DNA from: Banduia mediterranea
GTDB taxonomy: Bacteria > Pseudomonadota > Gammaproteobacteria > Nevskiales > Nevskiaceae
Reading direction: 5' to 3'
NCBI RefSeq assembly: GCF_031846245.1
Contig: NZ_JAVRIC010000002.1
Location: forward strand, 1 to 64,000
DNA: 64,000 nucleotides
Below, piece after piece: positions 43,892-48,058 of this stretch. The notes below the pieces were generated by a model. That model made no database searches. It worked only from the letters and a program-made list of their open reading frames with translations, and was not told the DNA's origin. A program made the translations under genes and the position numbers. Each line of letters starts with the position of its first letter. Position 1 is the first letter of the stretch.

Positions 43892-45985
43892 ATGCCTGCC
43901 CTATTGAGTGTTCGTGGTCGCCTGATTGCGCTCGTCGCCAGCCTGGTCATCTGTCTGGGTGGAGCCAATCTTCTGCTGGGCCATCTGATCAGCAATGAGG
44001 AGAGGGTCAAGGCGCAGATGTGGGAACAGCATCAACGACTGGAAACGATTCATGCCGTCGTCGCGATGATGAGCACGCACCGCTTCAACCTCGGTCAGTA
44101 CAACAGCGCCTCGCTGATCAACGATCAAGCGCAGATCGCGGCAGCACAAGCGGCGGTGGATCAATCGCTCAACAAGCTACAAGCACAGCTCTCGAAAATG
44201 GCAGCGTTCGACGCGGCCAGTACCGAGCAGGTCCGCGAGCAGCTGGGCGCGCTGCCTGTGCACATCGGCGACGGAATGGAGGCATTCAAGGCTGGCCGCC
44301 AAGAAGAAGCCAATTTCCACATCGGAAAAGTCCGCAGCAGTCTCGATATGGTCGAGAAGACCCTGCATCGGGCAACCTCTCGTGAACAGGCCGAGGCGGA
44401 GGCCGTGCGCCAACATGAGACGGAACACGCCACGAATGTGATGCGGCTGTCTCTACTGATCGTCGCCATCAGCATCATGCTTGGCGCCATTCTCGGGTTC
44501 TGGCTGCTGCAGTCGATCATGCGACCATTGCAGGCCACCGTGCGTGCGATGCGGCAGGTCAACGACGGCGAGACTTCGGTCGACCTGCCGCCCATCACTC
44601 ACGACGAGTTCGGCGAGATGGCGCAGGCACTGCGCCAGTTTCGCGACCAGACCGAAAGGCTGCGGCAGCTGGCTTACAACGACGCACTGACCGGGCTCGG
44701 CACCCGGGCGCGACTCGAAGAAGTGGTGGAGCGCGCCACCGGGCAAGCGACGTCCGATTCATCGCCCATCGCACTGATGTTCATCAGCCTCGATAATCTG
44801 CGCAACGTCAACGACAGCCTCGGACATCGCATCGGCGACCACTATCTGTGCGAAGCGGCGGTTCGGCTTCAACGGTTTGCCCCATTCGGCAGTACGCTGT
44901 GCCGCTTCGGCGGGGACAAGTTCGTCATCGTACTAGACGAGATTCCGGGCCATGACCTTTCGGCTCAGATCGCGGCGATCTGCAACGTGGCGCGCAACAT
45001 CCTCATCGGTCTCTCCGAACCCTTCCCGTTCCGCGACCATCTGCTGCCAATGACGGCCTCGATCGGCGTGGGCATGTATCCCGCCGACGGTGAATCCTTC
45101 GAAGGCTTGATCACCGCAGCCGAGACCGCGATGTACACGGCCCGGCGTACCGGGGGCAACAGCGTTCAGTTCGCCAAGGCCGATTTCAGGACCACGGCCC
45201 GCGACCGTCTGCAACTGATCTCGGATATCCGTCGAGCGATCGAAGTCGGCGAGTTTCAGGCGCATTTCCAGCCGATCGTGGACACCGACACCAATCGCGT
45301 GATCGCCGCCGAGGCGCTGCTGCGCTGGCAGCATCCGGCGCGAGGGCTGCTGCTGCCCGGTGAGTTCATCCAGATCGCGGAGGAATCGGGCCTGATCCGA
45401 TCGCTGGGTGAACACTGCCTGCTACAGGCCTGCGAGCAGGCTGCGCTGTGGCGAAAGGCCGGCCACCCCATCCGGCTGTCGATCAATCTGTCGGCGCGCC
45501 AGATCGAGGATCGAACCATCCTGCCCGCTCTGCAAAGGATTTCCGCCGCTGCGCTGGTGCCGCCCGAATCAGTGGATTTCGAGATCACCGAAACCGCGAT
45601 GCTCGAGCACATCGACCATGCTCACGCCACGCTGACCGAGATTCGCTCTCTGGGCTACCGGATCAGCGTGGACGACTTCGGCACGGGTTACTCCTCGCTG
45701 GCCTACGTGCAGCGCTATCCGATCGACAAGATCAAGATCGACCGCTCTTTCGTCGCCAAGCTGGAGTACGCCCGTGAGGCCCGCGCGATTGTTTCCGCGA
45801 CCATGGCGCTGGCACAGCGCCTGGATCTGGAGTGTGTGGCCGAGGGCGTGGAAACTTCCCAGCAGATGCGCCTGCTCAGGGACATCTCCTGCACGCTGCA
45901 GCAGGGCTTCTATTTTTCGCCGGCGCTGGCGCCGGAAAATTTCCTGCCCTGGGTGCTCAGCTACGAGTCGCGGTCGGAATACTGA
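43892..45985 (+). CDS. Membrane GGDEF/EAL protein with degenerate GGDKF
   Basis: Protein of 697 residues. Membrane helices at about 10-31 and 184-206 enclose a periplasmic four-helix sensor (about 32-183), then HAMP (about 207-258). The GGDEF domain (about 262-430) has the active loop as GGDKF at 340-344, so cyclase activity is doubtful. The EAL domain (about 440-690) has EALLRW (474-479), NLSARQ, ETAML, DDFGTGYSSL and EGVET intact. It probably acts as a c-di-GMP phosphodiesterase controlled by a periplasmic signal. Its last 25 bases overlap the convergent gene 45961-46851. Confidence 0.9.
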   Translation: MPALLSVRGRLIALVASLVICLGGANLLLGHLISNEERVKAQMWEQHQRLETIHAVVAMMSTHRFNLGQYNSASLINDQAQIAAAQAAVDQSLNKLQAQLSKMAAFDAASTEQVREQLGALPVHIGDGMEAFKAGRQEEANFHIGKVRSSLDMVEKTLHRATSREQAEAEAVRQHETEHATNVMRLSLLIVAISIMLGAILGFWLLQSIMRPLQATVRAMRQVNDGETSVDLPPITHDEFGEMAQALRQFRDQTERLRQLAYNDALTGLGTRARLEEVVERATGQATSDSSPIALMFISLDNLRNVNDSLGHRIGDHYLCEAAVRLQRFAPFGSTLCRFGGDKFVIVLDEIPGHDLSAQIAAICNVARNILIGLSEPFPFRDHLLPMTASIGVGMYPADGESFEGLITAAETAMYTARRTGGNSVQFAKADFRTTARDRLQLISDIRRAIEVGEFQAHFQPIVDTDTNRVIAAEALLRWQHPARGLLLPGEFIQIAEESGLIRSLGEHCLLQACEQAALWRKAGHPIRLSINLSARQIEDRTILPALQRISAAALVPPESVDFEITETAMLEHIDHAHATLTEIRSLGYRISVDDFGTGYSSLAYVQRYPIDKIKIDRSFVAKLEYAREARAIVSATMALAQRLDLECVAEGVETSQQMRLLRDISCTLQQGFYFSPALAPENFLPWVLSYESRSEY

Positions 45986-46851
45986 GCCAGCTGCGCACGA
46001 GCCTCTCGTGTCACCAGCGGGTGCGGATCATCCACGGCCAGAGCCCAGACATGCAGATCGGGCGCCAGGCGATCCAGTGCGCTGACGGCGCCGATGCGGG
46101 CGCGCGGCGAAGGATGCCTGACCATCAGATCCGCCAGCAGATCGCGTGTGTTGCCATCGCCCAGCATGCTGGCGATCCTGAAGAACGATGAGCGCTTGGA
46201 GTTTTCGCTCTCAGCCGGATAGCCTGCGATGACGCCGCGCTCCAGATCGAAAAAATACTGCTCGCGAGCACGCACCTCTGGGACGGACACCATCAAATTC
46301 AAGGTGATGCTCATCTCCTTGGGGGGGTGCTGCACATGAAGGTCGCGGCTGGCGCGGTACAGCATCGCCATGTCACGGCCGAAACGCATGCGCTGCAAGG
46401 GCCGGATACTGACGGACTCCCCGACATAGCCGACGACCGATTCGAAATCATATTCGAACAGATCCGTTTCATAACCGGAACCGGAATAGTTGACGGTCAG
46501 AAAGCTGAAATTGTGGTCATGCGCCAGATCGTAGGAGAACTGTCCCTGGAACACACGACCGGCCACGATGTCAGCCGTGGACGGCCAGACATTCGCGCGC
46601 ACATAGAAGTTCTTGCGCTGCCCCAGCAGTATGGCCTGACTGGACGGAGTGGTCTCATCCGAAAACTGTCGGGCGATAAGCTCATTGAGACGGCGGACAA
46701 TCAGCTCCCGGTCATTGGCCAGCGCACGCAGCATCGGCGCTGATTCCGCGATCGAATCCTCGTCATTGAGATCGACCTTGGCCTGCACATAGTCCAGATA
46801 ATCCTCGGTGTCTATCGTGTCGTGGCCCTCGCAAGGGATGATCAAAGCCAT
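45961..46851 (-). CDS. Cupin-like metalloprotein with C-terminal HEAT repeats (candidate peptide-tailoring enzyme)
   Basis: Protein of 296 residues that I cannot assign to a named family. The N-terminal part (1-about 190) contains HDHNFSFLTVNYSGSG (H111, H113), ETDLFEYD (E133) and MLYRASRDLHVQHPP (H172, H175). The HxH...E...H order resembles the metal site of cupins (inference). The C-terminal part (about 215-290) has HEAT-like helices (MVRHPSPRARIGAVSALDRL, DDPHPLVTREARAQL). It starts 2 bases after the gene at 46854-47678, so they are one transcript with the small peptide gene upstream. It could be an oxygenase or binding protein acting on that peptide. Confidence 0.75.
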   Translation of the reverse strand: MALIIPCEGHDTIDTEDYLDYVQAKVDLNDEDSIAESAPMLRALANDRELIVRRLNELIARQFSDETTPSSQAILLGQRKNFYVRANVWPSTADIVAGRVFQGQFSYDLAHDHNFSFLTVNYSGSGYETDLFEYDFESVVGYVGESVSIRPLQRMRFGRDMAMLYRASRDLHVQHPPKEMSITLNLMVSVPEVRAREQYFFDLERGVIAGYPAESENSKRSSFFRIASMLGDGNTRDLLADLMVRHPSPRARIGAVSALDRLAPDLHVWALAVDDPHPLVTREARAQLAQYSDRDS

Positions 46852-46853
46852 GC

Positions 46854-47678
46854 CTAAATCTTCTTGTCCGTGATCGCCTGCAATGCCTTGCGCGCGGCGC
46901 TTTGCACGTGGGGGTGGCGATCGTGTGTCGCTGCTTCCAGCGCCTGAATCGCCGCCAGACGGTACAAGCGCGCCAGGTTCTGGATCGCCGCCCAGCGAAC
47001 AGCATGATGGGGATGCTTGGTCAGTTTCTCGACCGGATCGATCGACGAATGATGTGCAAAGCGACCAAGCACCGTCGCTGCGACCCGCAGCTGTGTGAAG
47101 CTCAGGTCCGCATCATTGGCCTGCCAGGCCTGTAGCCGGTCCCTGCTGAACAGCCATTCCAGGGTTCGTATCGGCGGCGTGACCAGCTTGAGCAACAGCG
47201 TGGGTTGACGGAACCGGAAATCATAGACGAACCGGTCCGATTCTATGGACAAGACCTCGCCGCACCGCAACCGCCGGGATTCGACCGGCTCCAGATGCAG
47301 CGATGGATCGAACACATCGTTCCGATACGAGTCCGGCAAGCGATAGACATCGTAATCAACGGACTCACCCGAAAGCAGGGCGTAGAACGCCAGTGTCGGC
47401 AAGGCGTGGATGTAACGCTGGGGCTCTTCGTGCAAGGACACCGAGAGGAGAAACCGCTCGCGGTGTAGTACCCACTCCCGCGAAAACCAGGACCCGACGA
47501 AATCGGGCCGGGCGCGTTGCTGGATCAGTTGGCGATTGATTTCATCGCGAAGAAATGACGAATCGACGAAGGCCTGAAACGCCGCTCGGCAGTCCCAAAA
47601 GCTTTCCGGTGCCTCGGGTCGAAACACCGACTCGGCCGATTCCACCAGTGCAGCAAGCGCATGTTCCCCTTTGGTCAT
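46854..47678 (-). CDS. HEAT-repeat protein paired with the cupin-like protein
   Basis: Protein of 274 residues that I do not recognise. Residues 1-about 185 are a mixed domain with no clear motif (REWVLHRERFLLSVSLHEEPQRYIH). Residues about 190-270 are HEAT-like repeats (KHPHHAVRWAAIQNLARLYR, THDRHPHVQSAARKALQAIT), similar in style to the C-terminus of its downstream partner. A CCCTCTATTAGAGGG stem covers the ribosome site, with AGAGGG directly against the ATG, so its translation may be limited or coupled. It lies 239 bp downstream of the peptide gene. Confidence 0.7.
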   Translation of the reverse strand: MTKGEHALAALVESAESVFRPEAPESFWDCRAAFQAFVDSSFLRDEINRQLIQQRARPDFVGSWFSREWVLHRERFLLSVSLHEEPQRYIHALPTLAFYALLSGESVDYDVYRLPDSYRNDVFDPSLHLEPVESRRLRCGEVLSIESDRFVYDFRFRQPTLLLKLVTPPIRTLEWLFSRDRLQAWQANDADLSFTQLRVAATVLGRFAHHSSIDPVEKLTKHPHHAVRWAAIQNLARLYRLAAIQALEAATHDRHPHVQSAARKALQAITDKKI

Positions 47679-47917: not shown

Positions 47918-48058
47918 TCAGGTGTGATCGAACATCACGATCAGGAACGCCGCATTGCTGGCCTGCGTGTCACCCGCTTCGGCCGCCCCGGCGCCTGCAA
48001 CGTCATATTCCAGATCCGGGATTTCGAGTTCGATTTCGTTGTTGATGTCAAAGTTCAT
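47918..48058 (-). CDS. Small acidic peptide (46 residues), candidate modified-peptide precursor
   Basis: Starts at ATG 48058 with AGGAG 10 bases upstream. The N-terminal half, MNFDINNEIELEIPDLEYD, is acidic and leader-like. The rest is small residues (AGAGAAEAGDTQASN), then a hydrophobic end AAFLIVMFDHT. There is no cysteine, so lanthionine or sactionine bridges are excluded. It is followed on the same strand by a hairpin and two HEAT-repeat proteins, and preceded by AT-rich DNA with repeated operator-like sites. The design suggests a precursor peptide, but a small structural or toxin-type protein is also possible. Confidence 0.6.
   Translation of the reverse strand: MNFDINNEIELEIPDLEYDVAGAGAAEAGDTQASNAAFLIVMFDHT

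Follow-up and report, generated by a model that had tools for sequence, protein, structure and literature searches.

A candidate RiPP-type cassette with a predicted three-histidine cupin-HEAT enzyme, its metal-less paralogue and a short peptide in Banduia mediterranea

We analysed a 64,000-nucleotide stretch of the Banduia mediterranea genome (the window) and propose that three of its minus-strand genes probably constitute a RiPP-type cassette, in which an enzyme/pseudo-enzyme pair would oxidise the core of a short peptide. Our computations establish the genes, their co-conservation, the predicted fold, the conservation of three histidines and the paralogous relationship between the two larger proteins. 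We favor the RiPP-type reading because it best accounts for the leader/core pattern of the peptides, the tight order of the genes and the co-occurrence of peptide and enzyme. Two features underlie the class assignment, namely a linked gene for a short precursor and, within it, a conserved leader followed by a variable core.

Organization of the three genes and the small peptide

The putative catalytic subunit is a cupin-HEAT protein of 296 aa, encoded by an ORF that starts with ATG (46851..45961, minus strand). An earlier note had singled out this protein, and its ORF, coordinates and numbering of H111, D112, H113, E128, E133, H172 and H175 are correct. Directly upstream, the gene for a 274-aa partner protein (47678..46854, minus strand) stops 2 nt ahead of the cupin-HEAT start. 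An unannotated gene (48058..47918, minus strand), some 240 nt upstream of the partner gene, has AGGAG ahead of its ATG and encodes a 46-aa peptide (MNFDINNEIELEIPDLEYDVAGAGAAEAGDTQASNAAFLIVMFDHT) that we regard as the putative precursor. This peptide is conserved in Nevskiaceae, where substitutions fall at codon positions 1/2/3 in the numbers 936/613/1673, and a DNA alignment of the Nevskiaceae peptide loci showed conservation mostly limited to the ORF. Longest-ORF gene calling produced many antisense artefacts and was replaced by codon-usage scoring. Antisense matches ending in GMLLMIHDH at three loci (L028, L031 and L074) were set aside as chance, at least the L028 site being antisense to a GTPase-like ORF.

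Across loci, the N-terminal half of the peptide is conserved, and the hydrophobic tail that follows varies in both length and sequence, with no tail residue universal. The conserved half reads LExxDLEYDVAxVG, and its sphingomonad counterpart IDLxxLPDLDTxxGxFGS; peptides from Lysobacter, Luteimonas, Pseudoduganella, Dyadobacter and Maricaulis carry a DLxxxVxPxG-like motif, the likeness across groups being judged by eye. Column entropy in the sphingomonad peptides is ~0.8-1.8 bits where the motif is best conserved and reaches 2.8-3.6 bits over most of the tail. None of the NCBIfam models names the peptides tested.

Distribution and genomic surroundings of the cassette

A motif-assisted scan of public genomes, in which each locus was found via one of two histidine-containing motifs, returned 51 loci from Nevskiaceae, Pseudoduganella, Maricaulis, Sphingomonas/Sphingopyxis, Lysobacter/Luteimonas/Silanimonas and Neokomagataea, as well as Bacteroidota (Dyadobacter, Hymenobacter, Flavobacterium), Blastopirellula and Eremiobacterota. 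The order peptide, HEAT pseudo-cupin, cupin-HEAT recurs in several phyla, and at nearly every locus whose contig extends far enough the partner gene immediately precedes that of the enzyme. Among 61 related genomes, the peptide was present in 10/12 that carry the enzyme and 0/49 that do not, although these counts are not independent events. Peptide relatives occur at most Nevskiaceae loci, mostly within ~1 kb upstream of the partner; at three loci (L014-L016) the peptide lies 2.5-3 kb downstream of the enzyme. One Nevskiaceae subclade (L023, L025, L028-L032 and L074; e.g. genomes G003 and G031) has enzyme and partner with no recognised peptide nearby, and its precursor may be encoded elsewhere, have diverged strongly or have been lost. 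A full-profile search of Sphingomonadaceae found the enzyme family in 104/299 genomes, and a 40-60 aa peptide sits just upstream of the partner at 34/40 sphingomonad loci. One locus (L160, genome G625) has two tandem cassettes, each with its own peptide, and a second enzyme copy, more distant and not picked up by the motif scan, is present in Pseudoduganella buxea (genome G339).

On its other side, the cupin-HEAT gene is convergent with a HAMP-GGDEF-EAL gene (43892..45985, plus strand), the two overlapping by 25 bp at their 3' ends; at 18 of the compared loci, almost all from Nevskiaceae, a relative of this gene adjoins the cassette. An Rfam search returned nothing, and a promoter and terminator scan gave matches no more frequent than chance. 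We found no peptidase or transporter adjoining the three genes in the window. Elsewhere, the Dyadobacter locus includes an ABC exporter and HlyD, and ABC transporter/HlyD genes also occur in Luteimonas loci. In Eremiobacterota (L043:4502-11402), the enzyme/partner pair is surrounded by an ABC transporter, two PqqD domains and two near-identical peptides, making this the most RiPP-like cluster among the loci compared.

These surroundings bear on whether the peptide could instead serve a HEAT/cupin complex as small subunit, regulator or membrane anchor, the enzyme of that complex acting on another substrate. The hydrophobic tails could enter a membrane or pack on such a complex, and no leader peptidase or exporter was found in the minimal loci. 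We nevertheless think this role unlikely, since a conserved N-terminal half joined to a variable tail is the pattern of a leader and core, and since some loci have two distinct peptides (L043) or exporters. For the RiPP-type cassette, we count the ABC transporter, HlyD or PqqD genes at some loci in its favor; the missing peptidase and transporter in the window, the peptide-free Nevskiaceae subclade, the lack of a universal tail residue and the weak profile score against CDO/MDO described below count against it.

Predicted fold and metal site of the cupin-HEAT protein

An AlphaFold2 model of the cupin-HEAT protein, built from a 49-sequence alignment (pLDDT 94.8), has helices at the N-terminus, a beta-barrel, and further helices at the C-terminus over residues 216-295. 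Structure prediction had been suggested in the earlier note, and it yielded a confident cupin fold whose nearest structures are thiol dioxygenases: Foldseek against the PDB placed the Pseudomonas aeruginosa 3MDO (4tlf) first (E 3.6e-8), followed by mercaptosuccinate dioxygenase (8vni), PCO4, CDO and, later, ADO. The C-terminal helices (45967..46206, minus strand) are HEAT-like, the family profile matching alphaRep/HEAT structures at 6e-15 over residues 212-294, which bears out the HEAT repeats reported previously. With single sequences, the Pfam HEAT match of this protein was weak and below cut-off, and a PDB search gave nothing.

The partner shares this architecture, being predicted as a degenerate cupin barrel with C-terminal HEAT repeats at ~residues 192-273. 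It matches HEAT_2 in Pfam (6e-11), its AlphaFold2 model has a pLDDT of 95.5, and its best Foldseek match is cysteine dioxygenase. No conserved HxH or metal ligands were found in the partner family. BLASTP of the partner against the cupin-HEAT protein was not significant (E 0.13), and profile-profile comparison of the two families aligned 266 columns (probability 99.4, E 5e-21). The shared fold and profile similarity, together with the lack of a conserved HxH, identify the partner as a full-length, metal-less paralogue of the cupin-HEAT protein. Pfam and NCBIfam contain no model that names the enzyme or the partner, returning only HEAT or nothing.

Thiol dioxygenases are defined as a superfamily by a strictly conserved 3-His coordination, in which the loop preceding a strand supplies two ligands and the third lies in a strand further along (PMC8503633). 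In our model, H111 and H113 precede the strand 117-123 and H172 lies within the strand 170-175. A profile alignment with CDO/MDO sequences was collinear, with a weak score (probability 29%, pairwise E 6e-4; 62% in global mode), and paired all three histidines with the 3MDO ligands. H111-D112-H113 (46513..46521, minus strand), holding the first two predicted ligands, aligned with the HDH of 3MDO; D170-L-H172 aligned with D-V-H, placing H172 (46336..46338, minus strand), within D170-x-H172-x-Q174, opposite the third histidine; and W89 aligned with a conserved Trp. The same alignment set SITLNLM against SISIHVY, so that T183, N185 and M187 stand at the positions of the Ser-His-Tyr motif of CDO/MDO, which is not kept; ADO and PCO likewise deviate from CDO/MDO at this motif (PMC8503633). 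The cupin-HEAT protein had no Pfam CDO_I match at E <= 1. An equivalence of R85 with CDO R60 was considered and dropped, as R85 falls, in this alignment, on the strand that precedes the conserved Trp.

Given this resemblance, the protein might be a small-molecule thiol dioxygenase of sulfur metabolism beside an unrelated peptide gene, which would suit a fold and three histidines like those of CDO/3MDO and an almost invariant Q72 that falls close to the 3MDO Gln in the profile alignment. We judge this quite improbable, because the peptide co-occurs with the enzyme and the linkage is kept over several phyla, the Ser-His-Tyr motif is lost, and CDO/MDO enzymes have neither HEAT repeats nor a metal-less paralogue.

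Conservation of the predicted ligands points to a three-histidine site. H111, H113 and H172 are essentially invariant in ~93 homologues, and D112, D170 and Q174 join them as invariant in the 49-sequence alignment; around the predicted site W89 and Q198 are invariant as well, and R85 nearly so. Eleven same-family homologues from a whole-protein search, 46-59% identical apart from one near-identical protein of the same genus, retain H111, D112, H113, D170, H172 and Q174. As the motif scan selects on histidines, we retested conservation with the full-profile search, and among 41 of the sphingomonad proteins found in this way H111 was present in 41/41, H113 in 41/41 and H172 in 40/41. The lone exception (L161, genome G627) has R at H172 and has also lost other conserved site residues; this divergent enzyme still adjoins an LPDL-type peptide and is possibly, judging from its residues, an inactive copy.

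The earlier note had placed a glutamate, E133 or E128, beside the three histidines as in a classical cupin site, and had proposed checking all four residues in homologues. The histidines and the cupin fold came through this check, but the glutamate did not: E128 is not conserved, and E133 (46453..46455, minus strand), which is Glu in 46/52 homologues and in 36/41 sphingomonad proteins, with D, Q or T in most of the others, is matched by no ligand in the thiol-dioxygenase alignment. The prevalence of Glu at E133 is what speaks for four ligands (H111, H113, E133 and H172), yet such a site is highly improbable, since functional-looking homologues with D, Q, A or T at this position keep all three histidines, F117/L118 occupy the motif-1 Glu position that follows HxH in a classical metal cupin (HxH-x3/4-E...H), and the nearest folds coordinate by three histidines. 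Nor is the pair of histidines in RASRDLHVQHPP, previously thought unusual, a feature of the family, as the second, H175, is replaced by L, Y, F or T in other homologues. With clustering judged via fold and alignment, the predicted metal site is thus a 3-His site that does not include the proposed glutamate, and the cupin-HEAT protein is very probably, from model and alignments, a three-histidine metal enzyme that joins a cysteine-dioxygenase fold to HEAT repeats. A metal sensor or metal-storage protein devoid of catalysis, for which we see nothing specific, is also highly improbable: an active site is suggested by the invariant W89, D112, D170, Q174 and Q198, by the near-invariant R85 and by the variable peptide linked to the enzyme.

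Proposed reaction and relation to known systems

In the RiPP-type cassette that we propose, the 46-aa peptide would be the substrate, its conserved half serving as the leader and the variable hydrophobic tail as the core. The leader is probably gripped by a heterodimer of the HEAT pseudo-cupin with the cupin-HEAT enzyme, and HEAT repeats from one subunit or both probably provide the binding surface. Fe(II) would most likely be held by H111, H113 and H172, and the cupin would use O2 to oxidise a core residue, most likely by hydroxylation or a similar reaction. A peptide had already been suspected as the ligand of the HEAT repeats, and the small peptide gene conserved within the cassette supplies a likely substrate. 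This gene and that of the paralogous partner, the most informative parts of the cassette, lie outside the coordinates covered by the earlier note.

Among characterized proteins, the thiol dioxygenases (3MDO 4tlf, 3uss; CDO; mercaptosuccinate dioxygenase 8vni; ADO, PCO) come closest, with a cupin barrel, an H-x-H...H arrangement and HDH and D-x-H motifs that align with those found here. The ADO and PCO members of the superfamily act on peptides (PMC8503633, PMC12098869). In contrast to these enzymes, the present one carries a C-terminal HEAT fusion, has a metal-less paralogue as partner and is linked, in the window, to a cysteine-free peptide, whereas the Ser-His-Tyr motif, a Cys93 equivalent and a Pfam CDO_I match are missing. 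Deoxyhypusine hydroxylase (4d4z), which gave a weak match to the family profile over its HEAT part, also brings HEAT repeats into an iron-dependent protein-modifying enzyme. There the HEAT repeats themselves carry the iron, whereas here the predicted site lies in the cupin barrel and the HEAT repeats are an appended domain.

Cupin-like hydroxylases of RiPP pathways are already known. PbsQ, a cupin-like (JmjC) hydroxylase of a biphenomycin-like pathway, takes part in RiPP biosynthesis (PMC12257519), and the enzyme proposed here would likewise be a cupin-fold oxygenase modifying a ribosomal peptide. PbsQ, however, is of the JmjC/2-oxoglutarate type and belongs to a many-enzyme cluster, whereas the present protein is of a three-histidine type, and its three-gene cassette has no other recognisable modifying enzyme. 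MNIO (DUF692) enzymes work with partner proteins in RiPP pathways (PMC12257519), and our proposal has in common with them an iron-dependent peptide oxidase and a dedicated partner protein; they differ in fold and metal site, and here the enzyme is partnered by its own degenerate paralogue.

A literature search on HEAT, cupin and RiPP found no description of this combination, preprints and many subscription journals being outside the search. We see an even chance that the cassette represents a new RiPP class, found in roughly one third of the sampled sphingomonad genomes and scattered over several phyla, whose sole dedicated machinery is a thiol-dioxygenase-fold iron enzyme with its metal-less twin and whose reaction is a peptide oxidation other than thiol dioxygenation. 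If so, this enzyme fold would be new to RiPP maturation within the literature searched, and a three-histidine cupin would have been diverted from thiol oxidation to peptide modification with the aid of a pseudo-enzyme. It would also mean that a class of peptides has been overlooked, with the enzyme in 104/299 sphingomonad genomes.

As the window peptide lacks cysteine, oxidation of a peptide cysteine is excluded as the reaction there. A link between peptide subgroup and metal-site residues was sought, and no clear one was found. A subgroup of peptides with GGxxC tails has a conserved Cys (L123, L124, L127, L129, L133, L141, L142 and L148; also L033 and L052). In this subgroup thiol oxidation is possible, and in sphingomonads with such tails the targets may differ.
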